64,000 bases of DNA. Source: Planctomycetaceae bacterium (GTDB taxonomy: Bacteria > Planctomycetota > Planctomycetia > Planctomycetales > Planctomycetaceae). The position numbers and the translations under genes were made by a program. Within the stretch, counting starts at the first letter, position 1, and every line of letters begins with the position of its first letter. Positions 7,169 through 30,746 of the stretch are shown here, piece after piece. The stretch spans positions 1-64,000 of the forward strand of contig JAHBXV010000002.1 in assembly GCA_019636285.1 (NCBI GenBank), in the 5' to 3' direction. The notes beneath the pieces were generated by a model. That model saw only the letters and a program-made list of their open reading frames with translations, was not told the origin of the DNA and made no database searches.

Positions 7169-7170
7169 AC

Positions 7171-10132: not shown

Positions 10133-10158
10133 TTCGGGAAGCCGATGCGCGCACGCAA

Positions 10159-10430: not shown

Positions 10431-10444
10431 ATTTCGGACGAAAT
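10431..10444. repeat. Palindromic site 3, ATTTCGGACGAAAT
   Basis: This copy lies inside the insert and ends 11 bases before the ATG of the plus-strand membrane protein, where a bound protein would be expected to affect its expression. Centre GA; flanks gtctc and aacgg. Confidence 0.85.
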
Positions 10445-10455
10445 AACGGGAATTC

Positions 10456-11118
10456 ATGTGGGGCCACACCATGCTTTCCAGAATCCTGACGATGATCCGC
10501 CGCGTGATCGGTTGGTCAATCGCTCTCGTCTGCGGCGGACTCGCGACATTCTTTCTGGTCAGCAACGAACGGCTGCTCACCATCGTCTTTGCAGTCCCCG
10601 CCGTTTTCGGCCTCTACCTCACGCTGCGTCGGGGGCCGCGATCGCGGAAGTACGAAGACTATCGCTGGGGAAAACCGGCTCCAACAGCCCGGCAATTCGG
10701 CTATGCGTGCTCGCTGGGGATTCCCCTCCGCAACGGGCTGACGAAAGGTGATCTCAGCCGCTTGCTTTCCGAGGCCGAACAGAAACAACCGCCAACTGAA
10801 GAGCAGCTTGAGGACGCCAAGGAACTGGGGCTAAAGGTTCCGCGCGGTATCTCGAAAGGCGCCTTGGACGATTTGCTGGAGAAGGCGGATGAAGATCAGG
10901 AACCGGCCGACCGTGACCAACTGGCAATCATTCGGGAGTATCACGGCGTCCTACCGCGCAAGATCAACTATCGCGAGGCGGAAGAAGTGATCGAGTTTCT
11001 TGAAACCCATCATCTCCCATGCCCGTTCTGCCGCTTCGAGATTTGTGCGATGGACGACAGGTGCTGCGCGTGCGAAAAGAGTCTGAAGAAACTGAAGATA
11101 CCGATCAAGCTGGAGTAG
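10456..11118 (+). CDS. Membrane protein with three ~40-residue repeats and a C-terminal zinc knuckle
   Basis: The 220-residue protein has two membrane segments near residues 18-34 and 41-56. Three related repeats follow: PTARQFGYACSLGI..., PTEEQLEDAKELGL... and ADRDQLAIIREYHG..., each ending in a DLLxxAE-like helix. The C-terminus has CPFCRFEICAMDDRCCACEK, a likely zinc site. It is the only plus-strand gene of the insert and converges on the subtilase gene. The start could instead be the ATG at 10471. A palindromic ATTTCG site lies just before the ATG. I do not recognise the family; the position next to IetAS makes an accessory defence role possible but unproven. Confidence 0.65.
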   Translation: MWGHTMLSRILTMIRRVIGWSIALVCGGLATFFLVSNERLLTIVFAVPAVFGLYLTLRRGPRSRKYEDYRWGKPAPTARQFGYACSLGIPLRNGLTKGDLSRLLSEAEQKQPPTEEQLEDAKELGLKVPRGISKGALDDLLEKADEDQEPADRDQLAIIREYHGVLPRKINYREAEEVIEFLETHHLPCPFCRFEICAMDDRCCACEKSLKKLKIPIKLE

Positions 11119-11164
11119 GTTGGCCATCGTTTCCGCAAAGTGGACGGATCGAGGCAAGGCGACT

Positions 11165-13774
11165 CTAGAGCGGTCCCATTTCGATAATCTGAGCATCGAC
11201 CGAATTTTCGACACCGATCTCGTGTTGCACCGCAGCTTCGGCCATCGCTTCGTAGATTTCGATCTGCTGATCGACAACCTCAAAGCTCGCAACGAGAGCA
11301 TATCGGGCTGCCGCTTCGGGGTCGTTGTCCCAGCCTTCATGCCCTTTGACGGCGATGTAAAAGCTCTCCGGCAGGGCGTGTGATTCAACAACCGCCCAGT
11401 CTTTCTGGACGCTCCCCTTCTTTCGACTCGTGCCACGAATGGTGGCGTGAGTGGTGGCCGCTCCCAGCATCCACGGAATCGGGTCGCCTTCCCGCACTGT
11501 CCTTGTTCCCTCGAAGACTTGACCTCGAAATGAGGCCAGCGGTTCTCCCAACTTGCTCGCTTCCCAGTCGACCCAGGTGGACAGGTAGCGCCGCATGGTC
11601 CGGCAGGTTCGGCGTGGCCGCGCGACGAAGGCGAGGGTGATTTCGATCAGCACTTTGTGCTGTGAGCCCGAAGCGCGGACTTGCTGAGGAATGGGGACTT
11701 GATACAAGTGCGCGTCTTTCGCCTTAATCCAGCAGTCTTCCGCCGTGATGTATGTCGCTCGATGCGGCGTGTTGCGGGTCGCACGTTGAACGTCGGGAAT
11801 GCCGAATCCGATGCGGCGCATCAACTCGCATTTTCTGGTTTCGTCCAGGAACCAGGATTCCTCCGGCCACCGGGCCGATTGAACGATCAACGCCCGCGTC
11901 AGTTGCGCCGACGCATCCGGAATGACGCTCTGAATCTCCGCCGCGATGCGCGTCACAAGCGGTGTTGAGAACGATGTCCCCGATCGCTCCCGGCTTGCGA
12001 GCGGACCCGGCCCTCCGAAGGTGGAGCGGACGAGCATTGGGCAACACTCGGGAACGAGCCCGCCGTGACGAACCTCTCCCGGATTGTCGCGAGCGACCAC
12101 GGCATCGCCTCCGAACTCCACCACGTCGGGCTTGATACTCTCCCAAAGCCCAAACCCGGTCCGTGAGAATGCAGACGCATCACCAGGGCGCTGCGCGAAC
12201 GTCCGCCATTCCGAGAGTTCAAACATGCCGCGTGCGACAGAGCCAACCGTCAGCGCATGCAGACTCTGAGCGGGGTTCGCAATGCGACTGCCGGGGTTGA
12301 GCAAAAATCGGGGATACGTCTGGCCGCGTTGGACGCAGTGCCGAAGGCACTGGTTGTCGGAATCATCGTCGAGTGGAATGTTTCCCGCGCTCTGAACGAT
12401 CAAGATGTCGTTCTCATAGCTCAGCAGGTCGATCTCTGCCGACCAGGTGGACATGTGCTGCAACTTGCACGGATTTCGGGTGTTGATCGACTGATTGAAG
12501 ATCCGGGTGCGTCGCGGCCCTTCGTGAAAGTGTTTGACGGCCCGGCGAGTGGCGACGGCAGGATGCAGGTTTTCGGGCATCCCGCAGTCTGCGTTCAGAA
12601 CGCGGGCGTTTTGAATCCAGTAGTCGGCAAGAATGGTTCCACCCGATGGGACTTCCGGGCCATACAGAATGGCTCCCGCGACGGCCGTTCCGTGGCCGGT
12701 CGGCTGATAGTAGTCGGCGACATCGCTTGGAGATTCTCCCGGCAGGAAACACCGTGACGTCTCTTCGTCAATCGCGCCATCGAGCAGTGGATGCTTCTCC
12801 TGAATCCCACTGTCAATCACGCACACGGCCGGCGCGTTGCCGAGGGGCGAGAAGATCGTCGGCGGGTCGTCGATGCCCGGCACCGGATCGACCGGCAAGT
12901 CGATCTCGATTGGCTCGGCCTCTTGGACCTCGAAGACGTACGGGAAATTTAGAACCAGGTCTCGCAACCCGTCGCCGGTCAGACGCACGCGGGCGGTGAA
13001 GCTGTCCGGCAATCGCACGAAATCGGCACTGAGTTCGTCCGAGCCGGGCTGCAAAATCTCTCCCCGCAATTCTCGTACAAACCTGCGAACTTCCTGCTCT
13101 CGTTTCTCCTTAAGTTCTTCCCACTGCATCAACAGCTCTCGTCGTGTTTTCATCCACGATTCCAGTTCCTCTTCTAGCTCAGTGGGCGAGACTGTCGGAC
13201 GCTCGCGCGGTCGGGCCGGAAGGTCACTCGGACTCTCGCAACTCACGCCAAGATCGACTGTCAACGCCGGGCATTGGGAAAGGGAAGGCCACAGTTCCAG
13301 GAGTCGTTCCGAGAGGATGCGCTTCAATCGCTCTTGCTGACTTCCGTCGACAATGAATTCATGAACGCTCGCGACGACCGCCGATCCTCTCTCGTTGGTC
13401 GCGAAAGCATCAACCTGTTCCAGGAACTGCGTGAGGCCATCGCTTGAGCAAAAGACGACCACGCCGTCTTCCTGCTCCGTCACCACGTCAAATTCAAATT
13501 TCTCGGCAAGCGGGGCGACCGACTGATTGGGGTCGAGTTTGAGAAGAACCGGAACACCAACCGGTTTCACCGGTGAATCAGGGCGCGCGGGAAGTGCCAG
13601 GGCAAGTTCCTGCATGTATTGCCGACCGGCGTCGGAAAGCTTCTCGGCATGTGCGGCGTGATTCGCTCTGTTTTGCCGAGTCTGATTGTTGAGTCTGGGC
13701 GGGGGATTGAGCCGGGCGGAATCTCGGATTCTCGCCACGAAGCGAATGTGGTCGAAGTTCCGATCCGCGGACAT
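11165..13774 (-). CDS. ietS: Subtilisin-like serine protease, IetS-type
   Basis: The 869-residue protein has an S8 catalytic triad: Asp321 in AVCVIDSGIQ, His361 in TGHGTAVAGAIL and Ser601 in SGTSFSTPLV. A roughly 300-residue N-terminal region and a C-terminal beta-rich region flank the protease. No signal peptide is visible, so it should act in the cytoplasm. It follows an AAA ATPase gene after 11 bases. A cytoplasmic subtilase paired with this kind of ATPase is the IetA/IetS arrangement, first described on an Agrobacterium Ti plasmid as a maintenance/incompatibility system and later reported as antiphage. Confidence 0.85.
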   Translation of the reverse strand: MSADRNFDHIRFVARIRDSARLNPPPRLNNQTRQNRANHAAHAEKLSDAGRQYMQELALALPARPDSPVKPVGVPVLLKLDPNQSVAPLAEKFEFDVVTEQEDGVVVFCSSDGLTQFLEQVDAFATNERGSAVVASVHEFIVDGSQQERLKRILSERLLELWPSLSQCPALTVDLGVSCESPSDLPARPRERPTVSPTELEEELESWMKTRRELLMQWEELKEKREQEVRRFVRELRGEILQPGSDELSADFVRLPDSFTARVRLTGDGLRDLVLNFPYVFEVQEAEPIEIDLPVDPVPGIDDPPTIFSPLGNAPAVCVIDSGIQEKHPLLDGAIDEETSRCFLPGESPSDVADYYQPTGHGTAVAGAILYGPEVPSGGTILADYWIQNARVLNADCGMPENLHPAVATRRAVKHFHEGPRRTRIFNQSINTRNPCKLQHMSTWSAEIDLLSYENDILIVQSAGNIPLDDDSDNQCLRHCVQRGQTYPRFLLNPGSRIANPAQSLHALTVGSVARGMFELSEWRTFAQRPGDASAFSRTGFGLWESIKPDVVEFGGDAVVARDNPGEVRHGGLVPECCPMLVRSTFGGPGPLASRERSGTSFSTPLVTRIAAEIQSVIPDASAQLTRALIVQSARWPEESWFLDETRKCELMRRIGFGIPDVQRATRNTPHRATYITAEDCWIKAKDAHLYQVPIPQQVRASGSQHKVLIEITLAFVARPRRTCRTMRRYLSTWVDWEASKLGEPLASFRGQVFEGTRTVREGDPIPWMLGAATTHATIRGTSRKKGSVQKDWAVVESHALPESFYIAVKGHEGWDNDPEAAARYALVASFEVVDQQIEIYEAMAEAAVQHEIGVENSVDAQIIEMGPL

Positions 13775-13785
13775 GCATCGCGCTC

Positions 13786-14772
13786 CTAGGCGTCCAGTCG
13801 CTTCAGTTCACGAATCGCCGCGTCCAGACGTTCGCGAGTCACGGTTTTTTCCCCAGCGAGAATCGTGGCCTTCGCCGCGTCACGCGCGACCTTGACCACA
13901 TCGGCCGCCGACGCTCCAGCAAGAGTGGCAACAATCATTTGCCAGTTCATACACTGCTCGACCCCGATGTTTCGCAGCGAATCCGCCAACAGACGTTCGA
14001 CCTCTTGAACACCCGGCTTCGGGATCAGGAGCGAGTCATCGAACCGGCGGATGAAAGCCGGATCGAGAGCGGATTCTGTGTTGGTCGTCGCCACCAGCAA
14101 ACCGGGGGCATCGAACTCGTCCATCAGCAGGAGCAGCGAATTGACAATGCGAGACGCTTCTCCGATGTCCCGATTTCCGGTTCGTGAACGCGCGATGAAG
14201 TCGCACTCGTCCAACAGAAGGACGCATGGGCGGGATTTGGCCGCATCGAACACCGCTCGGAGGTTCGCGGCCGATTCCCCGAAATAGGATGAGAGAATCG
14301 CGTCGAAACGGACTTTCAACAGGGGGAGTCCAGTGTTCCAGGCGAGCCGCTGTGCTCCCAAGGACTTGCCACAGCCCGGCGGTCCGTAGAGAAGGACTGT
14401 TTTTCGCGGTTTGAGGCCATGCATCCCCAGCCGCTCTCGCGCCGCATACTCCGACTCGATACGGCAGAAGCGGGACTCCACGTCGACCGGAAGCACCATG
14501 TGGTGTTCAAGTCGTTCCTGCGGCACCATCGTCAGCAGCAACTCGCCGCCACGCTTGGCGGACGGCAGTTCCATCATCCGGCGCGGCGATGAGCTTCGAC
14601 CGGAATCGGCTCCCTGCCGCGCACTTCGAAAAGCCGATTCGAGCTGCTCGGCAATGCGAACATGCCCGCTGCTTCGCTCTGATTCAATCAGAAGTTCGGC
14701 CAGCGCGTCCAGGTCATCAGTGGAGCGCTCCGCGATGGCCCGCACGATCCGTTTCATCAGGGCAGCGTTCAT
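13786..14772 (-). CDS. ietA: AAA ATPase, IetA-type
   Basis: The 328-residue protein has Walker A at 130-137 (GPPGCGKS), Walker B at 184-190 (VLLLDEC), a sensor/arginine-finger region ATTNTESALDPAFIRRFDD and an N-terminal helical region (LIESERSSGHVRIAEQL) like that of IetA proteins. The ATG at 14772 fits the family start better than a TTG 51 bases upstream. It precedes the subtilase and is probably co-transcribed with it. In this family the ATPase is thought to control the protease. A palindromic ATTTCG site lies about 220 bases upstream. Confidence 0.83.
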   Translation of the reverse strand: MNAALMKRIVRAIAERSTDDLDALAELLIESERSSGHVRIAEQLESAFRSARQGADSGRSSSPRRMMELPSAKRGGELLLTMVPQERLEHHMVLPVDVESRFCRIESEYAARERLGMHGLKPRKTVLLYGPPGCGKSLGAQRLAWNTGLPLLKVRFDAILSSYFGESAANLRAVFDAAKSRPCVLLLDECDFIARSRTGNRDIGEASRIVNSLLLLMDEFDAPGLLVATTNTESALDPAFIRRFDDSLLIPKPGVQEVERLLADSLRNIGVEQCMNWQMIVATLAGASAADVVKVARDAAKATILAGEKTVTRERLDAAIRELKRLDA

Positions 14773-14995
14773 GATCCCGTGGCCCAAGGGGAAAGACAGT
14801 TCGAGTGATGGACGTTCTAACAAGTGTCACAGCGAAGATCACCACGAACGAAATCGGGTGGCGGACCTTTGTACAGTATCGGTCCGCAGGGCGACCATTT
14901 GCAAGAACGAGCGGCCCGGAGAGGGAAAAATGGTGACCGATTCCGGTTGCCATCGCGATGGATCGGCAGCCGCTGCCGACGAATCGGGAGAATTT

Positions 14996-15009
14996 ATTTC
15001 GGCCGAAAT
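14996..15009. repeat. Palindromic site 4, ATTTCGGCCGAAAT
   Basis: This copy lies inside the insert, in the non-coding stretch upstream of ietA. Centre GC, so fully symmetric, with an extended match TTATTTCGGCCGAAATAA. Confidence 0.88.
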
Positions 15010-15130
15010 AACCGGAAGAGAGAGAGCTGCAAGCCCCCGGTCGGCCGAGAGGTTGTGCCGTTCGTGGTGGAAACTTCAGCGACGCCCCGCAGAATGGCGT
15101 GGCTCATTCGGCTACCCATGCAAACGACAA

Positions 15131-15154
15131 GGCGGCGGCAAAAATGCCGCCGCC
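15131..15154 (-). terminator. Hairpin between the HTH gene and ietA
   Basis: GGCGGCGGCA and TGCCGCCGCC pair perfectly around AAAA. It lies 80 bases past the stop of the helix-turn-helix gene. There is no strong U-run, so termination strength is uncertain. The 463 bases between 14773 and 15235 hold only this hairpin and palindromic site 4. Confidence 0.5.
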
Positions 15155-15235
15155 TCGCCGTTGTGAGCGACCAGGAGCAGCCAAACTCCAATCGCCAGTG
15201 ATCAGTCGTAGCAGCCTCTGCTCGGTCAAACAATG

Positions 15236-15994
15236 TCAGAAGGCCGCGTCGATGGCCTCCCTACGGTTGAATTGCAGATCCTCATGCCGCACGCGACACC
15301 TCGCGGCTACCGTGTCCCCGCTCCCCAGCGTGTAGACCTTCTTCACGAAGATGTCATCCAATTCAAACAGACGCCAGGCTTCATTCACGATCCGCTCGTA
15401 CTCGGTCGGTGACGAGTAGAGCCTCAGCAGCGAAGGCAGAGACTTAATCGCATCCACTGGCCTGACCGCACATAGCCGATGAGCCAACGATCGAAGCCTC
15501 AAAGAAGCGTATTCCAGCCCACGCGAAGCGAGCCTCTTGGGTGGCGTGCGTCCTGCCATTTTGATCAGTTTCTGTTCGTACGGTGGTTGCTGAACAAGCT
15601 CAAGGAGAACCCGATCCGGACGTATGTCTATCAATCGAGCCGGTCGGCCGTACTGGTCGGTTTGCTTCAAGGTCGCCGGTATCTTCGGTCTGATCCAGTT
15701 CCGGACGTCTTCTTTGAAAGTATCAATGTGGTTTGGCACGGAGTTGAAATCGAACCAATCCGTTTCCCGGTCGACCGGAGGCATCGCTAGATCAGGACAG
15801 CCAGATTTGGCGTATGCCGCGAGAGCCTCCGGAGTGATCTTCCAGTCTCCGTCTTCACCAACCCGCGAAGCCGTTAGCTTGCGGCGGGCAATCAGTCGGA
15901 GAACCACGATTGAAGCTTGGCCGAGTTCATGGGCAGCCTGCTCGATGGTGAGGAATGGCGTCATCGCCACCACATGGCCTGACGGAGTTGCCAT
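15236..15994 (-). CDS. Helix-turn-helix protein at the element end, unknown family
   Basis: The 252-residue protein starts MATPSGHVVAMTPFLTIEQA after AAGGGA. Residues 12-66 look like an excisionase/MerR-type winged helix (LTIEQAAHELGQASIVVLRLIARRKL...WKITPEALAAYA). The remainder (PNHIDTFKEDVRNWIRPKIP...) is unfamiliar and has no catalytic signature I can name. It is the first gene inside the right end of the insert, the place where a recombination directionality factor could sit, and its N-terminus is of the right type for DNA binding. That role is inference. Confidence 0.55.
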   Translation of the reverse strand: MATPSGHVVAMTPFLTIEQAAHELGQASIVVLRLIARRKLTASRVGEDGDWKITPEALAAYAKSGCPDLAMPPVDRETDWFDFNSVPNHIDTFKEDVRNWIRPKIPATLKQTDQYGRPARLIDIRPDRVLLELVQQPPYEQKLIKMAGRTPPKRLASRGLEYASLRLRSLAHRLCAVRPVDAIKSLPSLLRLYSSPTEYERIVNEAWRLFELDDIFVKKVYTLGSGDTVAARCRVRHEDLQFNRREAIDAAF

Positions 15995-16221
15995 TGAATT
16001 CCCTTCAGAAAGAATGAACGAAGGTTTTGATGTTCCGAGAATTCGACGAAGCGGCGACCACGGCGGTCTAAACCCAACACGCGAAGTCCCGAAAGACATT
16101 TCAGGCTGTAGGCAACCGGGTGACCGGCGGCGACAGCAGGGTCGCGGTCCAACCAACTAATCACATGACCGCAAAGCCGTGACGGCGGGCGGCGGCCGCC
16201 GTCGGCCGCCGCTTCCGGCAA

Positions 16222-16298
16222 CCCGGTAGGTACTTTCCCGCCGAGCCGCCAAGCACCCCCAACGGGAACAGTCGCTGGGACGCACACACTTTCTTTCA
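16222..16298 (-). repeat. 77-bp dispersed repeat, copy A
   Basis: Read on the minus strand, TGAAAGAAAGTGTGTGC...TACCTACCGGG matches copy B at 20342-20418 with only about 7 differences, in inverted orientation. It lies within the insert, while copy B lies within the prophage. Inside it, CCCGG and CCGGG arms can pair. The short frame reading ESVC-PATVPVGG across it is a by-product of the repeat. Confidence 0.8.
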
Positions 16299-16311
16299 CG
16301 ATCCGGTTTGA

Positions 16312-16497
16312 TCAGGACGTAGCAGGAGGTTCCCTTCCGCGTTTTTGCAAGCGGCTCTTCTTAATGGCTGGTTTTGAAGAGGGTTGCGCTTGTTCGCCGT
16401 CCTGCTCCAAGTGCTGCCAGACGTCAATCCCAACCATCGCCCAGGCAGAGAAAGCATTTGAACGACGTTGCTCGTCCGTGAGCTCGTTCGATTTCAT
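16312..16497 (-). CDS. Possible small protein at the right end of the insert
   Basis: A 61-residue frame starting MKSNELTDEQRRSNAFSAW lies between a strong terminator and the 77-bp repeat. The composition looks protein-like (acidic start, Lys/Arg-rich tail), but there is no clear Shine-Dalgarno sequence. The same frame is open back through the terminator into the portal fragment. It may be a real small gene of the element or just the read-through tail of the broken portal frame. Confidence 0.35.
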   Translation of the reverse strand: MKSNELTDEQRRSNAFSAWAMVGIDVWQHLEQDGEQAQPSSKPAIKKSRLQKRGREPPATS

Positions 16498-16519
16498 GAT
16501 CAGCACCACAGCAACAAAA

Positions 16520-16558
16520 AGCCCTCCGCATTCGGCCAGAGCCGAGATGCGGAGGGCT
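16520..16558 (-). terminator. Intrinsic terminator just inside the right end of the insert
   Basis: AGCCCTCCGCAT and ATGCGGAGGGCT form a perfect 12-bp stem, extended inside by TCGGC/GCCGA, followed on the minus strand by TTTTTG. It would stop phage late transcription about 90 bases after it enters the insert. Confidence 0.85.
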
Positions 16559-16631
16559 TGGATTTCACGAAATAGATGGACTCGCAAAGGGGTTACTTCA
16601 TAGGCAGTTCCCGTCTCAAAGAAAACGCGAT

Positions 16632-16662
16632 TTGAACCACACTCCAAACTGAAGGGCATGTC
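16632..16662. other. attR-type junction of the 12-kb element
   Basis: Foreign DNA ending CACACTCC meets AAACTGAAGGGCATG, which encodes M-P-F-S of the portal on the minus strand. The A-run is shared with the left junction. Confidence 0.82.
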
Positions 16663-17637
16663 GAGCGCCTTCAGCGCGACCATAATCATCAGGCGGCTGA
16701 AATCCTGGAACTGCGTGCTCGGAGTGTTCGATTCCAGAAACTTGACGTCGTCGCCCCGGTTGAGATCCAGCTTCAAGGGACCACGGCCGAAGTCGACCTC
16801 ATAGCCCCGACTCGATTTCTTCGCGGCCTGGTCGCCGTCTTCATCCCCGTTGGCGTCTCGCAGAAACGCGATCGCGAACAGGTTCGAGATCTTTGCTTTC
16901 GCCTGGGCCAGGTCGAAGTTCTCGTACACGTCGGCCAGGTTGTTGAACGACGGCGCCAGCGGGCTGATGCCCCGGGTCTGGTCGAAGCGATCGAAATGGC
17001 CGAACAGATGCAACCGGCTCGCCGGCACATCCCGCTCGAACTCAAAGCCGCGTCCCCCACGAGCGCGACGGTGAATGGCATACGCGAGCGCCCGGCCGCC
17101 GCCGCGCACCACTTTCACCCCCTCGATCCACTCGGTTCCATCCGACGTCGACACGCGGGCGAGATCCGGATTGCGGATCCGGTCGCTCTCGATCCCCTGC
17201 ACGAATCCGTTGGCGAGCTTCAGCGTGCCGAAGTCGCCGTCGAGAACCTTGCGGGCCTCGGCCATGCGGATGTACTTGTCGAGACCGAACCGCGCGGAGG
17301 TCTCGAAGTTGGTCGTGCCAGACCACCAGCGCACGAGCTGCTCGCAGTCGGTATCGAATCCGTCGTCGCCGGTGCGGCTGTGGAAATTCGCCTCGCACAC
17401 GTAGTCCAGGTGCTTGCGCACCATCCAGCCGGCGATGGTGAAGTTCCGGACGATGTCGCGACCCTGGGCCTGCAGCTTCCGGCGGCCGCGGGTGGTCAGC
17501 GTCCGATCTTCCGACTCCAACTGTTCAGACGGCGCGCGTCGACGCCCCCGCGATTCTGTCGCGTGGTAGCCGAGGCTCGTCGCCGCCCTTCCCAGGAACT
17601 GGGCGCAGGCGTACCTGGATGACGCCAGCACGCCCAT
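16646..17637 (-). pseudogene. Portal protein, N-terminal fragment (cut by insertion)
   Basis: Residues 1-330 of a lambda-family portal protein are encoded here, ending ...MVALKALDMPFS at the junction. The frame then runs 111 codons into the insert before a stop at 16312, producing a chimaeric 441-residue reading. The missing portal C-terminus is at 4032-4469, and together they would make about 475 residues. The start at 17637 overlaps the end of the gpW-like gene, as expected for a phage head operon. Without the C-terminal stem the product cannot be a working portal, so packaging should fail while the insert stays in place. Confidence 0.88.
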
Positions 17638-18224: not shown

Positions 18225-20324
18225 TTACAGCTCGAGGTAACTGACGGACGGTGGTTCGACGGCGAGAGGGGCGGCGGGTTCCTGGGCCTGGATGAGCCGC
18301 GACCGGTTCTCAATCTTGCAGCCGAGTTCGGACGCTCCGACCGCGCAGCCCACCACGCAATCGAACCAGTGGTTGTCGGGTTTCGCCGTCGGCAGCGACC
18401 AGATGTCGACGCTGCGGACGCCGCTCGATTTCCGCTCGCGGGTCTCGGCGGTCAGGTGCTGGGCGAACAACCGGTGGATGTGTGGCGGCGACTGGAACAG
18501 GGAGAGGCTGTGATCTTCGGCCGGGTCCATGCTCAGGGCTTCATGCACGAAGCTCTTCCAGTAGTTGACGTCGGTCACGAGATAGCGGATCCCGCGCTTG
18601 CCGGTCTTCCGGAACCAGTGATGGCCACCGCGCTCTCCCTCGCCGGCGGGCCACTCCGACATCGGCTTGTGTTTCTCGCTGATCCCCTTTCCGTGCGCCG
18701 GTCGAATCAGGTGCGAGAACGGGCTTTCACGGCAGGCGGCATACACCGTGTCCATGGCCTGACCGTAGCCGGCGTCGACCAGGATCCGCTCCGGCCGCAG
18801 CTCGATCGCGTCGTCCCGCTTGTAGGCTTGGGACGCCAGCTCGGGCAGCAGCGTGTCGAGGGCCTTGCGGATCGCGGGCAGGATGTTCCGCAGCTTGGTC
18901 GCTTTCTTGATCGTGGGGTCGGCCGCTCGCAGCGTGAACTGCCCCTTCGTCTGCTTCGGCCATGTGCCATAGCTCAGCACGCCACCGGTGAAGTCGTCGT
19001 CCCACCAGCACACCGCCCAGAACAGCAGCCGATCGTGGACGTCGACCATCGCCGTCAGTCGCTGGGCTCGCAGCGGCACGCGACCGCGCGCCAACGGATT
19101 GACCTTGCGGGCGACCTGGTCCGCCGTCGGCAACGGATCGATCTCGGTGGCCGCGACGAGGGGTTCGTTCTGGTACTCGGAGGCGAAGGCTTCCGGATCC
19201 AGGAAGTACAGGTTCATCGCGGACTGCAGAGCGGTGACGTCGCACGGCCGTTTCCGCTCGGGCCAGGCGACGATGGCCCCTTCCTCCAGCTCTTTGCGGT
19301 GCTTGCGGTAGAACGCATTCGCCGCCTTCTGCACCTGCTCCGGCGTGGCGTCGCGGGCCAGCAGATCCGCGACCAGCTCGCGATATTCCTCCCAGCGGGC
19401 CATGTGTTTGGGCATGGCATACAGCAGCTTCTTCCGTTCCCCCTGCCAGTCGGGATGCGTGGCGCGGTTCAGCATCCGATCAGCCAGGTCATTCGGCTGG
19501 ATCACGGTGCAGGTCATGAGCGCGGCGACGCTCTTCCCTGGGCCAGCCAGGCCCAGCACGTCGGCGGCGACGATCTGCTCGCGGGCGTTGGTCTGATTCT
19601 CGCTGCGAGCGCTGTCGCGGGTCTGCGGGTCATCCAGGAGGACCAGCGTCGGGCGTTCCACTTCGCCGTCCGGCCTCAGGTAGTTCGCCCCGCGCACGGC
19701 CGACTTGATGGCTCCCGTCTTGACGATGGCCCCGGAGCCGGCGGCATCCGGAATCGTCGCGAAGACCACCGCCCGTTTCCCCCACACGATCTTCGTCGGG
19801 ACGCCCCGAAAGGTCTGACCCTTGGCGCGATTGGCGATTCCCTCAAGCCGCCGGCAGGGGATGCAGACCTCGGGGAAGTCGGCGAGCAGCAACTCGTTGG
19901 TTTCGAGCTCGGTCTTGATCTTGTCGATCGACTCGTCGGCCTTCTCCTTGTTCGCGCCGATCAGCATCGCGAACCGGTGATGGCCGTAGAGCACCGCCCA
20001 CAGGATGGCCCGTTCGCAGACCGTGGTCTTGCCGCTGCCGCGCGGCATGGCCATTGCGAACAGCCCCCCGGACAACACCGCCTGCTTCACTTTGGCGATG
20101 ATCGATTCGTGATCCTTCGACCATTTGAGCGGGAACGCCTTGGGGAAGTAGGTCAGCAGAAACTTGCCGAGATCCTGCTTCGCGGCGGACCGGCGTTTCG
20201 GGTTGGCGACCGGCGGGAGTTCCGGGATGGCGCGACCGGCTGCCGACAGCGCGGCCTGCCTCGCGGCGGCGTCGCGCTTGTGCCGTTCGTACGAATCGTC
20301 GCCCGGGTCGCCGGTCTTGCTCAA
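18225..20324 (-). CDS. Terminase large subunit
   Basis: The 699-residue protein has Walker A at 93-100 (MPRGSGKT), a Walker B-like TLVLLDDPQT and a C-terminal nuclease half with Asp-bearing strands (MVDVHDRLLFWAV, ILVDAGYGQAMD, DNHWFDCVVG). This is the large-terminase plan, of the long GpA-like kind. It packages DNA into the prohead through the portal. It is encoded just before the zinc-ribbon, gpW-like and portal genes. No separate small terminase is obvious upstream, where a Gam-like gene sits instead. Confidence 0.87.
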   Translation of the reverse strand: MSKTGDPGDDSYERHKRDAAARQAALSAAGRAIPELPPVANPKRRSAAKQDLGKFLLTYFPKAFPLKWSKDHESIIAKVKQAVLSGGLFAMAMPRGSGKTTVCERAILWAVLYGHHRFAMLIGANKEKADESIDKIKTELETNELLLADFPEVCIPCRRLEGIANRAKGQTFRGVPTKIVWGKRAVVFATIPDAAGSGAIVKTGAIKSAVRGANYLRPDGEVERPTLVLLDDPQTRDSARSENQTNAREQIVAADVLGLAGPGKSVAALMTCTVIQPNDLADRMLNRATHPDWQGERKKLLYAMPKHMARWEEYRELVADLLARDATPEQVQKAANAFYRKHRKELEEGAIVAWPERKRPCDVTALQSAMNLYFLDPEAFASEYQNEPLVAATEIDPLPTADQVARKVNPLARGRVPLRAQRLTAMVDVHDRLLFWAVCWWDDDFTGGVLSYGTWPKQTKGQFTLRAADPTIKKATKLRNILPAIRKALDTLLPELASQAYKRDDAIELRPERILVDAGYGQAMDTVYAACRESPFSHLIRPAHGKGISEKHKPMSEWPAGEGERGGHHWFRKTGKRGIRYLVTDVNYWKSFVHEALSMDPAEDHSLSLFQSPPHIHRLFAQHLTAETRERKSSGVRSVDIWSLPTAKPDNHWFDCVVGCAVGASELGCKIENRSRLIQAQEPAAPLAVEPPSVSYLEL

Positions 20325-20443: not shown

Positions 20444-21070
20444 TCAGCCGACCGGCGCCGTCACCTCGACGGCCGCCGGTTCGATGACGAACTCGTCGCG
20501 CTCGGTCTCGACCGAAAGCCCGACGCTCTTCAGCGTTTGTTGCTGCCGCTTTCCTTCGGCCCAGGCCTTCTTGATCGAGACCTTGTCGAGTTCCGGTTTC
20601 AGGCGAATCAGCCTTCCCAGCGTCAAGGAACCGAGCACGGTGAGCAGCAGTTTCGAGAGCAGCGACTGCAACTTGGCCCGCTTGTCGATCGACGACATGA
20701 CCGATTTCTCGGTTTCACCAGTGGCGAACGCGACGGCAGCCGGAGCCTTGCGAGTACCGATCCGGCCATGGGAGAGTTCGAGGGTCTTCGCGCCCTCCGG
20801 AAGATGGCTGGCGAGATGCTCTCGACACCAGTCTTCAAGCCGCGTTCGCAGAGCGGCTGCTCGATCAGCGAACGTGATCCGTTGGCCACCGATGTCGACC
20901 GCCAGTTTCTCGCAGGCGGTCTGCTTCAATTGCTCGATCGCCGATTTCGTGCGGGCGTCGACGGCGGCGGACTGTTGCGTCAGCCAGCCGAGTTCGTGCA
21001 GCGCGGCGTTGACGTCGTCGAGGGTTGTGATGGCACTGTCGACACCGAGGGCGTTGGGTCGCTGCGTCAC
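20444..21070 (-). CDS. Gam-like host-nuclease inhibitor
   Basis: The 208-residue protein has the coiled-coil plan of Mu Gam: DDVNAALHELGWLTQQSAAVDARTKSAIEQLKQ helices, then LRTRLEDWCREHLASHLPEGAKTLELSHGRIGTR with the family's late T-LELxxGxIGxR motif. Gam binds DNA ends and blocks exonucleases. A GTG start at 21070 follows AGGAG and is chosen over a longer frame whose first 56 residues look non-coding. A C-terminal extension (about 130-208) goes beyond usual Gam and is of unknown role. Confidence 0.7.
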   Translation of the reverse strand: MTQRPNALGVDSAITTLDDVNAALHELGWLTQQSAAVDARTKSAIEQLKQTACEKLAVDIGGQRITFADRAAALRTRLEDWCREHLASHLPEGAKTLELSHGRIGTRKAPAAVAFATGETEKSVMSSIDKRAKLQSLLSKLLLTVLGSLTLGRLIRLKPELDKVSIKKAWAEGKRQQQTLKSVGLSVETERDEFVIEPAAVEVTAPVG

Positions 21071-21102
21071 GGAAGGGGCTCCTGATTGAGCGGCCGCGAA
21101 CA

Positions 21103-21231
21103 GACCAGGGAGGGTGCAGCAAGGCGACAAGCGGTGAAGGTGGGTGGAGTCGCGCTGACCGTCCCTGGTCTTGCTCGGGAGTGGTGGGAAAGAGTATGAC
21201 CGCGGGCCAACGTCCCTGTTGCCCGCGGTCA
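21103..21231. other. Intergenic stretch with a perfect 11-bp hairpin
   Basis: The gap upstream of the Gam-like gene (21071-21304) holds TGACCGCGGGC and GCCCGCGGTCA (21197-21231) and a looser 9-bp inverted pair GACCAGGGA/TCCCTGGTC (21103 and 21162). The promoters of the minus-strand packaging operon and the plus-strand small genes should both lie here. I see no clear -35/-10 pair. Confidence 0.5.
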
Positions 21232-21304
21232 CTCGCATAGCCGATCGACGGGTTTATCCAGCACAGCCCACGCGCGGGTTGTCAACCGGAATTCGAGGGA
21301 CGAA

Positions 21305-23145: not shown

Positions 23146-23343
23146 ATGCTCGCGTGGTTGATTTCTTGGCGGGACCTGCTCGTGAAAATCGCTGGATTCG
23201 CCGTAAAGCTGTGGGCTCTTTGGAAACAGACGCGCAACATGGACGAGAAAAAATCTGGATTGAATCAAACGATCATGATTAACGCCGAGACCGTGAACGT
23301 GAACGTGTTTAACGTCAACATCTACACGTCTTCACGTCAGTGA
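23146..23343 (+). CDS. 65-residue plus-strand protein with one amphipathic or membrane helix
   Basis: The ATG at 23146 follows AAGGGGAAAAAG. The sequence LAWLISWRDLLVKIAGFAVKLWALW looks like an amphipathic or membrane helix, followed by a polar, Asn/Val-alternating tail (INAETVNVNVFNVNIYTS). Its end overlaps the end of the ParB-like gene by 12 bases in convergent orientation. The family is unknown; small size keeps confidence moderate. Confidence 0.45.
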   Translation: MLAWLISWRDLLVKIAGFAVKLWALWKQTRNMDEKKSGLNQTIMINAETVNVNVFNVNIYTSSRQ

Positions 23344-24900
23344 AACCGCCTCGCAGTCGACCAGTCGCTGCGGGGTCTTGGCCTTGCCCTTCCACGACAT
23401 CAGATCGTCGATCGCTTCCGCGCGTTTGACGGGCAGGAAGCCGTCGCCCCACTCGGCCGCGATCTCGTCGAGCTGGGCCCGCGTGTGGATCTCCAGGAAC
23501 TCCCGATCGAGCTGCCATTCCTTCTTGATGTCGATTCCCGCCTGGTCAGCCAGGGCGAGGATGGTCTTAGCGCGAATGTCCGGGTGATAGCCCTCGAAGC
23601 CCAGCGACACCCACTGCCGCAAGAGGTCGACCAGCAACTCCTGCGGATCGCGCTTGGCGATTGCACGCATCATCTGCATCGTGTCGTCGAAGCCGCTCAC
23701 ATTCAGCAGTTCATCCAGGACTCCCCCGCGTGCCAACACGCCCTCCGGAGTCGTGGCGAAAAACGTCACCCATCCGACCATCACGAGGAACGCTGGCCGC
23801 CGCTTGTCATCACTGAGGCGTGCGACCAGAGTCCGTTGCAGCCAGGTCAGCTTGTACCGGAACAATTTCTTGGCATAGACCGCCTGGGCCTTCTCGTCCT
23901 TCTTCTTCTGCTCGGCCGCGGTGACTTTGCCACCTGTCTTTTCTGCCTTCTCGGCTGCGGCCGCTTCGCGATCGCGCTTGCGTTGTTGCTGGGCCGTGAC
24001 GATTTGCTCCCAGCTCGCGATGTTCCAGCAGCGCTTCTCCCGGTCACCGTCGAACTTCACCTCGAAGACATCCAGCTCTTCGATCTGGGCCGGTGTCGGC
24101 TTGATGTCGATCGCGCCCCAGGTCCTGCCGCTGTTGGGCTCGCTGTAGTAATAATCTTTAAGCGGCCGGCTCGCATCGTCGACGGCACGCTGCACGAGGC
24201 GGCGGAACCTCCCAGCATCGGGCACTTTCCCACTGAATTCCCGCTTCAGGAGATGATTGAGGGCCGCGAAGACGGCCGCTTTGTCGCCGAACGGCACCAA
24301 CTCCCACAAATGGTGATCGGTCGCCTCGCCGTCGATCAGTCGCTGCTGCCACTCCTGCGGGGCCTTGAGCAGCCGGAGCCGATTGCTGATATGACTCTGG
24401 CTCCGGCCGATCTGTTCCCCGAGGCTCTTTTGCGTGACGCCGTCCGCCGCGAATCGATCGAGCATGTCCTGATAGCCGAGCGCCTCCTCAATTGCGTTGA
24501 GATCCTCGCGCGTGAGGTTCTCTTCGAGTCGCGCGGCTGCCGAGGCCAGGTCATTCTTGTCGACGATGCGCACAGGCACCGTCTTACGTCCGAGGAGCTT
24601 GGCGGCGCGGAGACGTCGCTCTCCCGCGATCAATTCATGCCGGCCATCCGGCCCAGCCGGACGCACCAGGAGCGGATGCAAGAAGCCATGCGCCGCGATC
24701 GACTTGGCCAGGATCTGCAACGCCTCCTCATTGAACACCTTTCGCGGGTTGGCAGTCGGAATGACGAGGTCGATGGCCACTTCGTCGCCAGCAGGTGGCG
24801 TCTCAGGGATGGCCGGAATCGTCTCACTCTTGGTCCGCTTCGCCTTGGGCTCCTTGCTGACTTTCGTGGCTCGACTAGCCGACCGTGTTGCCGTGGCCAT
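23332..24900 (-). CDS. ParB/Noc-like CTP-switch DNA-binding protein (no ParA nearby)
   Basis: The 522-residue product starts MATATRSASR after a strong AGGAGG. It has the ParB N-domain: LAKSIAAHGFLHPLLVR, then the CTP-binding GERRLRA at 93-99 and ENLTREDLN at 128-135. The helix-turn-helix at about 156-178 (TQKSLGEQIGRSQSHISNRLRLL) is followed by a long C-terminal region with a Lys/Glu-rich coil. ParB clamps load at palindromes and spread. No ParA is present in the window, which recalls Noc rather than a partition system. The same mobile region carries eight palindromes of Noc-site layout, which I propose as its binding sites. Confidence 0.85.
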   Translation of the reverse strand: MATATRSASRATKVSKEPKAKRTKSETIPAIPETPPAGDEVAIDLVIPTANPRKVFNEEALQILAKSIAAHGFLHPLLVRPAGPDGRHELIAGERRLRAAKLLGRKTVPVRIVDKNDLASAAARLEENLTREDLNAIEEALGYQDMLDRFAADGVTQKSLGEQIGRSQSHISNRLRLLKAPQEWQQRLIDGEATDHHLWELVPFGDKAAVFAALNHLLKREFSGKVPDAGRFRRLVQRAVDDASRPLKDYYYSEPNSGRTWGAIDIKPTPAQIEELDVFEVKFDGDREKRCWNIASWEQIVTAQQQRKRDREAAAAEKAEKTGGKVTAAEQKKKDEKAQAVYAKKLFRYKLTWLQRTLVARLSDDKRRPAFLVMVGWVTFFATTPEGVLARGGVLDELLNVSGFDDTMQMMRAIAKRDPQELLVDLLRQWVSLGFEGYHPDIRAKTILALADQAGIDIKKEWQLDREFLEIHTRAQLDEIAAEWGDGFLPVKRAEAIDDLMSWKGKAKTPQRLVDCEAVSLT

Positions 24901-25302
24901 GTACGCCTCCTGGAATTGACGGGAAAGGAACAGATTGATTTCGTCCGAAATAACGTCGTCGGCGTGCTCACGGGCCGCCTGCAAATTCTCGTAGCCGTCA
25001 CCCTGCCGCAGCTCGTCACACAGCGCACTTCGCCGCCATCGCAGGTATTGACCGGCTTCCCGGTAGTTGCCATCCATGGCGAACAACTGGCCGCACAGAT
25101 CGACGGCCGCCGCCATCACGACGCACCGCCAGTACTCGCAATCCGGCCACTCGTCACTGCACCAGCTCTCCAGCTCCATCAGCGTCGTGATCCGCAGCCC
25201 GTTCGCGGCGGCGGCAGCTTCGTCCGATACCCCGCCGCGCGGCTTGGGGATCGCGGAGACGGCGGCCACAGCGTCGGCAGTAGGCAACGGGCGGATCTCC
25301 AA
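24901..25302 (-). CDS. In-frame sequence upstream of the ParB-like start (separate gene or N-terminal extension)
   Basis: 134 codons (LEIRPLPTADAVAAVSAIPKPRG...) run without a stop into the ParB-like gene. The section MELESWCSDEWPDCEYWRCVVMAAAVDLCGQLF looks like real protein. A TTG at 25302 is the only upstream start and has no clear ribosome-binding site. Either a 656-residue fusion is made, or this part is translated from an internal start and reads through into ParB, which also has its own strong start. Palindromic site 7 lies here, encoding VISDEIN. Confidence 0.45.
24938..24951. repeat. Palindromic site 7, ATTTCGTCCGAAAT
   Basis: This copy lies 38 bases upstream of the ParB-like ATG, where binding could control its expression. 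Centre TC; flanks gattg and aacgt. Confidence 0.87.
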
Positions 25303-25338: not shown

Positions 25339-25581
25339 TCACGAGGCACTCTCTTTCGGCGGAACCCACGGCCCCAAACAGACCGAGATCTCGCGACCCA
25401 GGCAGATCACGTGGTGCGAACCGCCGCCGAAGACGACGATCGATCGCACGCGCCGTCCGCGCAGAGCACACGAGGTGCATAGCCCGACGATGGGCTTGAT
25501 CGATTGACCTCGCAGCGACTTCTTCCACGCGACCAATCCGGGATGGTCACCCGCGTATCGATACTTCGCCGGCGCGACCAT
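25339..25581 (-). CDS. Small phage protein with a CxxC pair, unknown
   Basis: The 80-residue product begins MVAPAKYRYAGDHPGLVAWK. It contains LCTSCALRGRR and SIVVFGGGSHHVICLG, suggesting a small metal-binding domain. Its ATG overlaps the stop of the upstream gene (TGATG). It is part of the early operon between the replication gene and the ParB-like gene. The family is not recognised. Confidence 0.5.
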   Translation of the reverse strand: MVAPAKYRYAGDHPGLVAWKKSLRGQSIKPIVGLCTSCALRGRRVRSIVVFGGGSHHVICLGREISVCLGPWVPPKESAS

Positions 25582-25814
25582 CAGACCACCTCGGCTTCCG
25601 GCTTCTGATACCGCCACATGGCTCCCATCAGTGCCGCGATCGTGCCAGGGTTGTTCCGTTCCGACTTCGCCATCAGCAACAGGAACAGCAGCGCATCCAC
25701 GAGACCCGGCTCCGAGGCCTCGCGCATCAGCACGCTGTTGAACGTGTCGTCGACGCCCCGGAGCGTCTCGGCGCTGATCTCGATCGCCATCGAATCGGCT
25801 AACAGCATTTTCAC
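25581..25814 (-). CDS. Small phage protein, unknown
   Basis: A GTG at 25814 follows AAGGAGACCACC at good spacing and is preferred over an in-frame start 15 bases upstream. The 77-residue, helical product (MLLADSMAIEISAETLRGVDD...) has no membrane segment strong enough to call. It follows the replication gene directly and overlaps the next gene. The function is unknown. Confidence 0.5.
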   Translation of the reverse strand: MKMLLADSMAIEISAETLRGVDDTFNSVLMREASEPGLVDALLFLLLMAKSERNNPGTIAALMGAMWRYQKPEAEVV

Positions 25815-25825
25815 GGTGGTCTCCT

Positions 25826-26884
25826 TCACTTGGCGGCCCGAGCGGCCCGTTTTGCCTCGAACTCTGCCAGCAGATCGACGTGCGTCTGCACGGGGACTTC
25901 CGGCCCCTGGTCGACGTCATCGGGAACCGCCTCGACCGGCGGATCCTCAGCCGCTGCAAACTCCAGCCGTGCGATCATGCGGGCCGCTTCGTCTTCGTCC
26001 GCACAACTGCCGTACCATCGAGCGGCCGCGACGTTCTCCCGGAAGATCGCGCCCCGCCGTGCCGCCACGCGTCGGTCAACCGCCGCCTGGACGAACACCT
26101 GGAATCGGTTGTCGTCGGTCGCCTCAAAGCACCCGGCAGCCGCCGCGAAGCAGAACAGCTCCTCGACGTCGGACGGGTTATCGAGATTTCGTTCCGCGAT
26201 CGCATGCCGCCACCAGGCGAAGAACCGCGGGCTCCCCCAGCGGGGAATTTGACCCCGGTCAGACACCGGTCTTAAGACTGGTCTTTTAGAATTCAATTCA
26301 TAAAAGACCGGTCTAAGACTGGTCTTAGAAGAGGGGGTCAAATTGACCCCCTTGACCCGGTCAAATTGACCCCCTTCGACGGGGTCAACTGACCCCCTGG
26401 AGGGGGTCAATTTGACCCCCTGAGGGCCGGGAGTTGACCCCCTGACTGGCACTCTGCCACAGCGGCCCGGACCGTTGGGCTTCTGTGGCATCACCCCCGC
26501 AGGAATCGGTTCGGTCTGCTGGTTGCCATTCCGGTCCAGGATGGCGAGCCAGCGGATCGAATACGTGTGCGAGCGGTGCGAGGAACCAGTCACCTCCAGG
26601 AAGCCAGTTGAGAGCGCCTCGTCGATGTAGTCGCGCGCGGTGTTGCGGGAGCGAACTCCCAGCTTCCACATCACCGTTTGCATCGGCGCACTAACCCGGA
26701 CACTGCCATCCGCCAGACGTTCGGCCTGCGGATCAATTTGCGTCAACTCATCCAGTGCGTGCAGTAGCTTCTTGACGCGGTCGCTGGCCAGCACGTCGGG
26801 CAAACCCTCGATCAGCGTGTGCCGTGCGGCACGCTGCCGATCGTCGTTCCCCCAGATCTCCTGCCAATCCAGTTGTCGTGACAC
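25826..26884 (-). CDS. Candidate phage replication initiator with the origin inside its gene
   Basis: The 352-residue protein has a winged-helix-like N-terminal domain (SAPMQTVMWKLGVRSRNTARDYIDEALSTGFLEV). A low-complexity linker (about residues 148-214) follows, then a C-terminal helical domain (FFAWWRHAIAERNLDNPSDVEELFCFAAAAG). The linker is exactly where the DNA carries clustered GGGGTCAA/TTGACCCC palindromes and an A/T-rich stretch. Lambda O has the same plan, with iterons inside the initiator gene. No helicase-loader or helicase motif is present, so the initiator role is inferred from the fold-like pattern and the iterons. Confidence 0.6.
   Translation of the reverse strand: MSRQLDWQEIWGNDDRQRAARHTLIEGLPDVLASDRVKKLLHALDELTQIDPQAERLADGSVRVSAPMQTVMWKLGVRSRNTARDYIDEALSTGFLEVTGSSHRSHTYSIRWLAILDRNGNQQTEPIPAGVMPQKPNGPGRCGRVPVRGSTPGPQGVKLTPSRGSVDPVEGGQFDRVKGVNLTPSSKTSLRPVFYELNSKRPVLRPVSDRGQIPRWGSPRFFAWWRHAIAERNLDNPSDVEELFCFAAAAGCFEATDDNRFQVFVQAAVDRRVAARRGAIFRENVAAARWYGSCADEDEAARMIARLEFAAAEDPPVEAVPDDVDQGPEVPVQTHVDLLAEFEAKRAARAAK
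26242..26442. other. Candidate replication origin: iterons plus A/T-rich inverted repeat
   Basis: Six TTGACCCC-type units lie in 200 bases, including two near-perfect palindromes, GGGGGTCAAATTGACCCCC (26333-26351) and GGGGGTCAATTTGACCCCC (26402-26420). Beside them a 14-bp inverted pair (AGACTGGTCTTTTA at 26275 and TAAAAGACCGGTCT at 26301, one mismatch) encloses GAATTCAATTCA, the most A/T-rich spot in the region. Iterons beside an unwinding element are the layout of theta-type origins. Confidence 0.65.
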
Positions 26885-26913: not shown

Positions 26914-27090
26914 TCAGGCGGCTTTACGTTGCTGCTCGGTCAGCGGCTCCAGTTCATCCCGAACAATGTGGAGGTGGCGGGGAGCCGTGATCCCGAGCCG
27001 CACATACCCTTGTTTGATGAAATGAACCTTGATTTCGATCTGGTCACCGATGCGGATCCTCTGGTTCTTCCGGCGGTCCAAAAACAACAT
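26914..27090 (-). CDS. csrA: CsrA-family translational regulator, phage-encoded
   Basis: The 58-residue product MLFLDRRKNQRIRIGDQIEI... follows the CsrA pattern: MLxLxRRxxxxIxIGDxIEI, then VRLGITAPRHLHIVRDEL with the conserved GIxAPxxxxVxRxEL end. It should dimerise and bind GGA motifs in mRNA. The ATG at 27090 follows GGAAAGG. Host CsrA usually has Ser/Gly in place of Asp-Arg at positions 5-6, so binding specificity could differ. Phage CsrA copies are thought to reprogram host or phage mRNA use. Confidence 0.85.
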   Translation of the reverse strand: MLFLDRRKNQRIRIGDQIEIKVHFIKQGYVRLGITAPRHLHIVRDELEPLTEQQRKAA

Positions 27091-27161
27091 AGGGGTTTCC
27101 TTTCCGAGTTCGTCCAAGGGGAGGACACTTCGCGGTATCAGGCCGCGCCCTTAAAGCCATG

Positions 27162-28918: not shown

Positions 28919-28932
28919 ATTTCGGACGAAAT
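28919..28932. repeat. Palindromic site 8, ATTTCGGACGAAAT
   Basis: This copy overlaps the last base of the integrase stop codon. Centre GA; flanks gaagt and caggg. Confidence 0.87.
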
Positions 28933-30155
28933 CAGGGCAGGGCGAAGCAGGGCGGCTGCTCCACCGCGTTGACCGCTTCGAAGATCAGGTCGCTGGGTTC
29001 GTGGTAGGACTTCGCGTTGAGCGACAGCCCGTGCCCCAGGACGAACAGCCCAGCCCCCTGCCGGGCACGTTCGAGCCGCGTGTTGCACGTGGCCCGCGCG
29101 ACCTGGAAGGGCTTTTCGAATGTCAGCGCAGCCATCGCGAACCGATGCGCGATCAGTTCCTTCCGACGTCGCGCGGGCCGTGACCGTTCCGGGTCGATCG
29201 CTTCGGGCGATGATCGACCCGGAAACAGCCACGGCGAATCGCCTTTCGACGGCAGACGCAGCACATGGCGCACGGTGACCGGTGCCAGCGGGATCGTCTG
29301 GGCCTTCCGCGTTTTCCGGGCGGTGAATGTCACGGTCGGGTGCGTGCCGACCAGATCGCAGTTCGACCACTTGAGCGAGAAGAGATCGACGGTGCGCATC
29401 CCGGTGTTGATGGCCAGGACGAACGCCACCTGCAGATCGACGTGATCCTTCAGCGCGAGGAACGCCGCCTCGATCTGCTCCGGCCTGTACACGCTGACCT
29501 TCCTGTCTTCCGGCCGCTTGCGTTCCGGTTTGGGGGCATGATCCAAGGCTCGCACCTGGACCGCGTAGTTCAGAATCGTGCGCAGATGGCCCCAGGTGGA
29601 GCGGGCGGTCGAGTCGCCCAGCTCGGCGTGCATCCGGGTTAATACGTCGGCGACGTACCGACCGGTGAGCGCCCCGATCGGAATGCCCGGCCAGGGCTTG
29701 TCCTCGGGCCAGTCCTCGGGCCGGCTGTAGCGTTCCCAGCGCGACAGCGCCTGCCGGTCTTTGCTGATCGTGCCGCGAGAGAGTTCCTTCGCCGCGCACC
29801 GTCGCTCGCGATCCTGGAGCATCCAGTCCTGGTAGAACGCTCGCAGCGTGAGGTTGTCGCGGATCCAGGCCCGGGAGACCTCGGGCACGACCGGATCGCG
29901 ATACCGCTGCTCGACGGCGGCCGCGTAAGCCCGCACGTCGGGATCGAGCGCCTGATCCCAGAGCGGCATCTGCCGCGGGTCGGGCTTGTGTTTCCTGCGG
30001 GGCTTGCTGACACCAGGATTCATCATCCTGGTGGCAGGCGGGGGTTGGAAGAGCGTCGGAAACTTGAGGATGGCCGGTGCGTCGTCGGCCTTGGGAACGG
30101 CGGACACGGGCGGCTCCGGAGACTTGCGGGAAGGCCATGGCGGCAACGGACGCAT
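28932..30155 (-). CDS. Tyrosine integrase of the prophage
   Basis: The 407-residue protein has a SAM-like N-domain (ISKDRQALSRWERYSRPED) and a catalytic domain. Arg is in AINTGMRTVDLFSLKW, Lys in FTARKTRKAQTI, then FQVARATCNTRLE, where Gln replaces the usual His but Arg remains. LGHG supplies the last His and SYHEPSD the Tyr. It lies 1.1 kb from the tRNA-Phe half that marks the attachment site, the usual place for a phage integrase. It reads leftwards, away from that site. Confidence 0.88.
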   Translation of the reverse strand: MRPLPPWPSRKSPEPPVSAVPKADDAPAILKFPTLFQPPPATRMMNPGVSKPRRKHKPDPRQMPLWDQALDPDVRAYAAAVEQRYRDPVVPEVSRAWIRDNLTLRAFYQDWMLQDRERRCAAKELSRGTISKDRQALSRWERYSRPEDWPEDKPWPGIPIGALTGRYVADVLTRMHAELGDSTARSTWGHLRTILNYAVQVRALDHAPKPERKRPEDRKVSVYRPEQIEAAFLALKDHVDLQVAFVLAINTGMRTVDLFSLKWSNCDLVGTHPTVTFTARKTRKAQTIPLAPVTVRHVLRLPSKGDSPWLFPGRSSPEAIDPERSRPARRRKELIAHRFAMAALTFEKPFQVARATCNTRLERARQGAGLFVLGHGLSLNAKSYHEPSDLIFEAVNAVEQPPCFALP

Positions 30156-30413: not shown

Positions 30414-30671
30414 TCAAGCGGAATGGGGCATCACCAAATCCGCCGTGGTTTCGCCGAGAAGGTCTTCCGGTCTGACGTCGAGCACGACGCACAGCTTCGA
30501 GATGCTCGACAACGTCGGGGACTTGTGGCCTTTTTCCCATGCCACAACAACCGGAGACGACGTTTCGAGTGACTCAGCGAGACGGCGCTGGCTCCAGCCC
30601 TTCGCAACCCGCAGCGCACGCAGGTTCCTGCAGAAGACAGGGCCGAGTTGGTCTGGCGTCATCGGTTGCAT
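30414..30671 (-). CDS. XRE-family repressor
   Basis: The 85-residue product has a complete lambda-type helix-turn-helix: NLRALRVAKGWSQRRLAESL followed by ETSSPVVVAWEKGHKSPTLSSISKLCVVLDV. It is short, with no dimerisation or LexA-type cleavage domain. The start may be 30671 or 30662; the ORF is open a little further. Its place beside the integrase and the attachment site is that of a lysogeny regulator. Confidence 0.8.
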   Translation of the reverse strand: MQPMTPDQLGPVFCRNLRALRVAKGWSQRRLAESLETSSPVVVAWEKGHKSPTLSSISKLCVVLDVRPEDLLGETTADLVMPHSA

Positions 30672-30746
30672 TCCTAAAGAATACCGCAGTGCGGTTGAAT
30701 CAACCACTGGTGTTTTGGTTCGTTTTCGCTTTGGGTTTTGCGGGAT

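Follow-up and report, generated by a model that had tools for sequence, protein, structure and literature searches.

Iteron origins located inside a gene are already known from both phages and plasmids. In lambda, an origin within the initiator gene is established (PMC5043065), and in SPP1, oriL lies in gene 38 and consists of direct repeats and an AT-rich unwinding element that are bound by gp38 (PMC6316719). The Rep protein of pSK41 comprises an N-terminal domain (NTD, residues 1-120), a linker whose coding sequence contains the origin (residues 121-199) and a C-terminal domain (CTD, residues 200-319), and this origin-coding linker is dispensable for protein function (PMC5703833). The origin repeats of RepA_N replicons are semi-palindromic (PMC7145576). 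Furthermore, the NTD of the pPR9 Rep protein corresponds to PF13730 (PMC5703833), and Paracoccus Reps of the HTH_36 type are accompanied by predicted oriV repeats near the rep gene, in one case over its start codon (PMC3832669).

The 64-kb stretch of planctomycete DNA analysed here (the window) contains an array of short repeats within a putative initiator gene, which very probably represents the site where replication of a prophage starts, within the gene of its own initiator. It is most likely an in-gene iteron origin like those of lambda O/ori, SPP1 gp38/oriL and pSK41 RepA_N. Judged by its gene content, the locus is a prophage: its genes, all on the minus strand to the left of 30.7 kb, include those for an integrase, an HTH_3 repressor, CsrA, ParB, Mu-Gam, terminase, portal and capsid proteins. 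Because the window starts at contig base 1, the left end of the prophage lies outside the sequence. The relevant genes are:

30414-30707, minus strand: HTH_3 repressor-like protein (family match)
28932-30155, minus strand: tyrosine integrase (phrog_1, E 1.3e-26)
26914-27117, minus strand: CsrA-family protein upstream of rep (E 6.4e-18)
25826-26884, minus strand: putative replication initiator gene (rep) containing the putative origin (GTG start, 352 aa, codon-position GC typical of coding sequence, relatives found)
25581-25829, minus strand: 82-aa ORF overlapping the end of rep, without a family in the family searches (from the ORF list)
23332-25302, minus strand: ParB-family protein with ParB_N and HTH_ParB domains (E 1.9e-18 and 3.8e-16)
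20444-21238, minus strand: Mu-Gam-like protein of the same prophage (E 6e-15)
18225-20324, minus strand: terminase large subunit of the same prophage (family match)
16312-17637, minus strand: portal protein, N-terminal part (Phage_portal_2, E 1.7e-27)
1831-2799, minus strand: major capsid protein of the same prophage (family match)

The portal gene occurs in two pieces within 4032-17637 (minus strand). The N-terminal piece (16312-17637) continues into foreign sequence, and the C-terminal piece is found 12 kb away at 4032-4499. The DNA between them encodes two recombinases, one of the large serine type (4542-6404) and one of the tyrosine type (8217-10154), together with a subtilase/AAA-ATPase pair (11165-14823) and an HTH_17-like protein, and this insert looks like a nested element interrupting the portal gene. 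Within it, the subtilase (phrog_3964, E 7.6e-121) and the adjacent AAA ATPase, both on the minus strand, may constitute a cargo or defence module. The CsrA gene is located directly upstream of the initiator, and CsrA-like matches near the initiator were also identified in the related loci L049, L052, L055, L060 and L062.

The initiator gene is preceded at a short distance by a ribosome-binding-like sequence (AGGAGGG). An AlphaFold2 model of the full protein, built with 14 aligned sequences, and a separate model of the C-terminal domain predict the following parts:

26522-26884, minus strand: N-terminal winged-helix domain, residues 1-121, putatively iteron-binding (pLDDT 85-97 for most of residues 20-120)
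26228-26521, minus strand: predicted disordered linker, codons 122-219, whose DNA carries the putative origin (pLDDT <50)
25829-26227, minus strand: C-terminal helical domain, residues 220-352, putatively replisome-recruiting (modelled with 30 relatives, pLDDT 85)

The best structural matches of the N-terminal domain are the RepA_N initiators 4pql (Z 9.4, rmsd 5.0 over 102), 4pt7 (Z 9.2) and 5kbj, which span Z 8.5-9.4. CRP-type folds are tied at Z 8.5, and since these winged helices fall within one Z unit, the structural likeness to RepA_N is a lead rather than a sign of membership. The C-terminal domain modelled alone has no convincing match in the PDB (best Z 3.4) and no Pfam family, and the PDB and Pfam comparison revealed neither a DnaD-like nor a loader-binding fold. 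The complete protein lacks significant initiator matches in Pfam, NCBIfam and PHROG (best hit phrog_270, E 0.043), and no DnaA box was found within its gene.

The repeats are concentrated in the middle of this gene. The half-site GGGGTCAA occurs nine times in the 64-kb window against 2.2 expected copies, a count reached by none of 100 dinucleotide shuffles. Eight of the nine exact copies are located at 26249-26441, on both strands and inside the initiator ORF, and a single copy is found in all the rest of the window. With one mismatch permitted, the array comprises 10 units. Several half-sites are joined as the near-palindrome GGGGTCAAnTTGACCCC, and the near-palindrome GGGTCAANTTGACCC, searched with up to one mismatch, was found four times in the 6.37-Mb genome, with three of the sites in this array. 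Register repeats of 35 nt are spaced by 23, 23, 23 and 22 nt, corresponding to an array period of 22-23 nt. The array is the densest 8-mer cluster of the window, and all other 8-mers with at least four copies per 220 nt derive from it. The putative origin thus consists of:

26332-26443, unstranded: main iteron array of GGGGTCAA/TTGACCCC and one-mismatch units (26334+, 26343-, 26366-, 26381+, 26403+, 26412-, 26434-; period 22-23 nt)
26255-26333, unstranded: AT-rich segment with nested inverted repeats (arms 26275-26288/26301-26314 and others), a putative DNA unwinding element and hairpin
26249-26256, minus strand: outlying iteron beyond the AT-rich segment (exact copy)

The array is under selection at the DNA level. 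When codons were permuted among synonymous positions with the protein held constant, eight copies per 220 nt were obtained in none of 200 shuffles, the maximum being four. Moreover, the exact copies fall into reading frames 2, 0, 0, 1, 1, 0, 0 and 1 on strands ++--++-+, and this distribution over three frames and both strands rules out a peptide repeat as the explanation. The lowest-GC 50 nt of the gene (34% versus 63-64% for the gene) lie at about 26284-26333, directly 3' of the array in the gene sense, and their AT-richness was matched by none of 300 synonymous shuffles. The folding energy of the segment has a z score of about -8, to which both the long inverted repeat and the last iteron palindrome within the folded stretch contribute. 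The first-pass annotation of this DNA had described six repeat units and an A/T-rich inverted repeat in a phage replication gene, at codons 148-214 and in a linker between two folded parts. Its count was too low (eight exact units, 10 with one mismatch), but the repeats themselves, the inverted repeat and the codon range were correct. The exact copies span codons 148-212 and thus fall within the predicted disordered residues 122-219, which are flanked by confidently modelled domains, and the phage setting is borne out by co-oriented genes for an integrase, Mu-Gam, terminase, portal and capsid.

A single-protein search of the host family identified five relatives of the initiator, and profile searches added more in the family, class and phylum. 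Protein-to-DNA searches with the window protein against genome contigs and viral contigs returned no matches, and neither did tblastn against phages and plasmids. In sequence, the initiator is closest to relatives from Schlesneria metagenome-assembled genomes, which belong to the Planctomycetaceae, the family of the window's genome. Most winged-helix relatives contain an array in the same slot, each with a lineage-specific unit. The two closest loci (L002 and L003, both Schlesneria) have the unit GGTCAA, which is shared with the core of the window array. The units are GGTGGGCGCCCAC in L005, GGGGCGACA in L006 and L004, CAAGGGAA in L013, AACCGGGG in L022 (10 copies), AAACCGGA in L037, ACCCCGGA in L038, CCCGGTCC in L040, GGCTGACA in L043 and TATCAGGG in L076 (11 copies), the last encoding a protein with a different C-terminus, and still other units are present in L079, L081, L085, L086 and L092. 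Same-strand spacings of these units cluster at 20-24 and 31-34 nt, with a phasing statistic that does not separate 10.5 from 12 nt.

In most members the AT minimum of the gene is also located directly 3' of the array, and for 11 of the 16 members tested it fell below what synonymous shuffling predicts (about 4% or better). As a background, 208 ORFs in 16 neighbourhoods were screened, and 15 of them had at least four copies. Ten of these 15 are initiator genes; among the remaining five, at least three have a trivial cause, namely an N-run, a 7-nt microsatellite and an in-frame 15-nt repeat. For exact 8-mers, counts in L002, L003, L004, L045, L046 and L074 are not clearly above those of synonymous shuffles. 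Winged-helix similarity and iteron similarity are weakly correlated (Mantel p 0.012; Spearman not significant), and the correlation depends on three loci. In GGYV-type proteins, which have the C-terminal domain alone in common, repeat counts equal the shuffle level, which indicates that the array goes with the winged helix. A separate planctomycete family, which has a GGYVLI-type N-terminus combined with this C-terminal domain, comprises L014, L017, L018, L020, L023, L026, L029, L030, L032, L034, L035, L069, L071 and L075; as these genes have no in-gene repeats, their origin, if they encode initiators, must be elsewhere.

Hairpins 3' of the array have z scores of -9 in L005, -6 in L040 and -5 in L025 relative to mononucleotide shuffles. 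Long perfect or near-perfect hairpins of unrelated sequence follow the iterons in L002, L005, L025 and L040, with 15-bp stems in L025 and L040, and their recurrence suggests that hairpin formation itself may be under selection.

The first-pass annotation had made its reading depend on the repeats being kept in close relatives with the same gene. They are kept in L002, L003 and most of the wider family, but not in L031 and L047, where both domains are present and no array is detectable, so the rule is not absolute. Its identification of the gene as a replication initiator is likewise supported through the relatives, although the window protein has no such match itself. HTH_36 was matched by nine of 14 aligned family members (best E 4.5e-11) and RepA_N by one of 14 (E 1.4e-3). 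Furthermore, phrog_391 ("replication initiation O-like") was matched by the initiator of an IMG/VR viral contig (L097) identical to L022 (E 4.6e-4).

These family-wide data also bear on other functions that the repeats could have. They might form a partition centromere, i.e. a parS cluster bound by the neighbouring ParB-family protein, whose gene lies about 0.5 kb downstream of rep; the units are near-palindromic, as is usual for parS sites, and ParB is encoded near three other iteron loci. Yet the arrays go with the initiator gene, where they lie between the two domain-coding parts, and some consist of non-palindromic direct repeats (L006). Of about 13 iteron loci, four have a ParB_N match nearby, whereas about nine, several of them on short contigs, have none. 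The lack of a ParB_N match on the 38.5-kb contig of L003, despite its GGTCAA core, further argues against a centromere, and we consider this function very unlikely.

It is equally improbable that the repeats are solely transcriptional operators, serving autoregulation of the initiator or binding of a phage repressor without origin function. Initiators often autoregulate, and an HTH_3 repressor gene is present in the prophage, but the array is located mid-gene rather than at any gene start, and the AT-rich hairpin segment behind it would be superfluous for an operator. Moreover, lambda O, SPP1 gene 38 and pSK41 rep have the same arrangement, and in all three it is established as an origin. The repeats could also function as mRNA hairpins that control translation or bind CsrA, in line with the strong folding of the palindromes and of the AT-rich inverted repeat and with the adjoining CsrA gene. 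This function is extremely doubtful, as the units of L006, L022 and L074 are all in direct orientation and would form no hairpin, and the spacings described above fit the helical phasing of duplex DNA, although 10.5 and 12 nt are not separated. Operator and RNA roles may, however, exist in addition to that of an origin. Low-complexity coding, by a repeated peptide or slippage, has next to no chance of explaining the array, since the copies occupy all three frames and both strands and protein-preserving shuffles never reach the observed count, even though the linker is Gly/Pro/Ser-rich and predicted to be unstructured.

For the favoured function as an in-gene replication origin, we propose that the N-terminal winged-helix domain would bind the GGGGTCAA half-sites, several of them paired as GGGGTCAAnTTGACCCC about two helical turns apart, would wrap the array and could then melt the adjoining AT-rich, hairpin-forming segment, after which the C-terminal domain would recruit the host helicase or primase machinery. 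Encoding the array in the predicted disordered linker would allow the DNA sites and the protein to evolve jointly and to be transferred as a single cassette. Next to the initiator there is no recognisable P-like gene for a helicase loader, the next genes being the 82-aa ORF without a family and then ParB. Since the host genome encodes DciA and its matches to the DnaC-related IstB_IS21 family are weak and partial, it is a reasonable conjecture that helicase loading depends on DciA and DnaB of the host. More broadly, planctomycete prophages and related elements might share a self-contained origin cassette (winged helix, in-gene iterons and AT-rich hairpin) that is recombined with different C-terminal domains, and in which the hairpin rather than a phage-encoded loader provides the single-strand site for loading of the host helicase; we regard this as a speculative and rather unlikely extension.

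The locus provides a predicted origin and initiator for a Planctomycetaceae prophage, from which replicating plasmids for planctomycetes might be developed. Current understanding is not overturned by it; of most interest is how fast the iterons change across this diverse family of initiators, with almost every lineage having its own iteron set in one and the same slot. The family is therefore a natural set of data from which to learn how winged-helix initiators select their DNA sites.

Compared with HTH_36 Reps, the likeness lies in the nine family members that match PF13730, as does the NTD of the pPR9 Rep; the window protein itself has no HTH_36 match, and the Paracoccus repeats are near rep, one of them overlapping its start codon. 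With SPP1 gp38/oriL, judged from the published description, the window locus shares repeats and an AT-rich element inside the initiator gene, but SPP1 has its own loader, helicase and second origin, none of which were seen at the window locus.

The parallel with lambda O/ori drawn in the first-pass annotation holds for the layout: in both, the origin (putative in the window) is part of the initiator gene, inverted-repeat iterons recur about every 20-24 nt and an AT-rich segment lies immediately 3', in the common order DNA-binding domain, iterons, AT-rich segment and C-terminal domain. In a control analysis, the annotated lambda iterons correspond to O codons 117-145 and the AT minimum starts 4 nt after them. 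Lambda O passed the repeat test with 7-mers; with 8-mers the top cluster lay elsewhere in the gene, because the lambda iterons are less uniform. In contrast to lambda O, the window protein has no match to phrog_391 at E <= 1, its iteron unit is a different one, as had also been stated, and no recognisable P-like loader gene follows.

With respect to pSK41 RepA_N, the window protein has no match to PF06970 at E <= 1 and its CTD no detected relation, and its repeats are GC-rich, do not converge on an A-tract and belong to a prophage of Planctomycetaceae. In both cases, however, a winged-helix NTD of about 120 aa, repeats in the central linker and a separate CTD are present, with nearly identical boundaries (1-120/121-199/200-319 in pSK41 versus 1-121/122-219/220-352 in the window protein). 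The repeats are semi-palindromic in both, and RepA_N structures are among the best matches of the N-terminal domain, tied with CRP-type folds. The window gene resembles RepA_N plasmid initiators at least as closely as it resembles lambda O.
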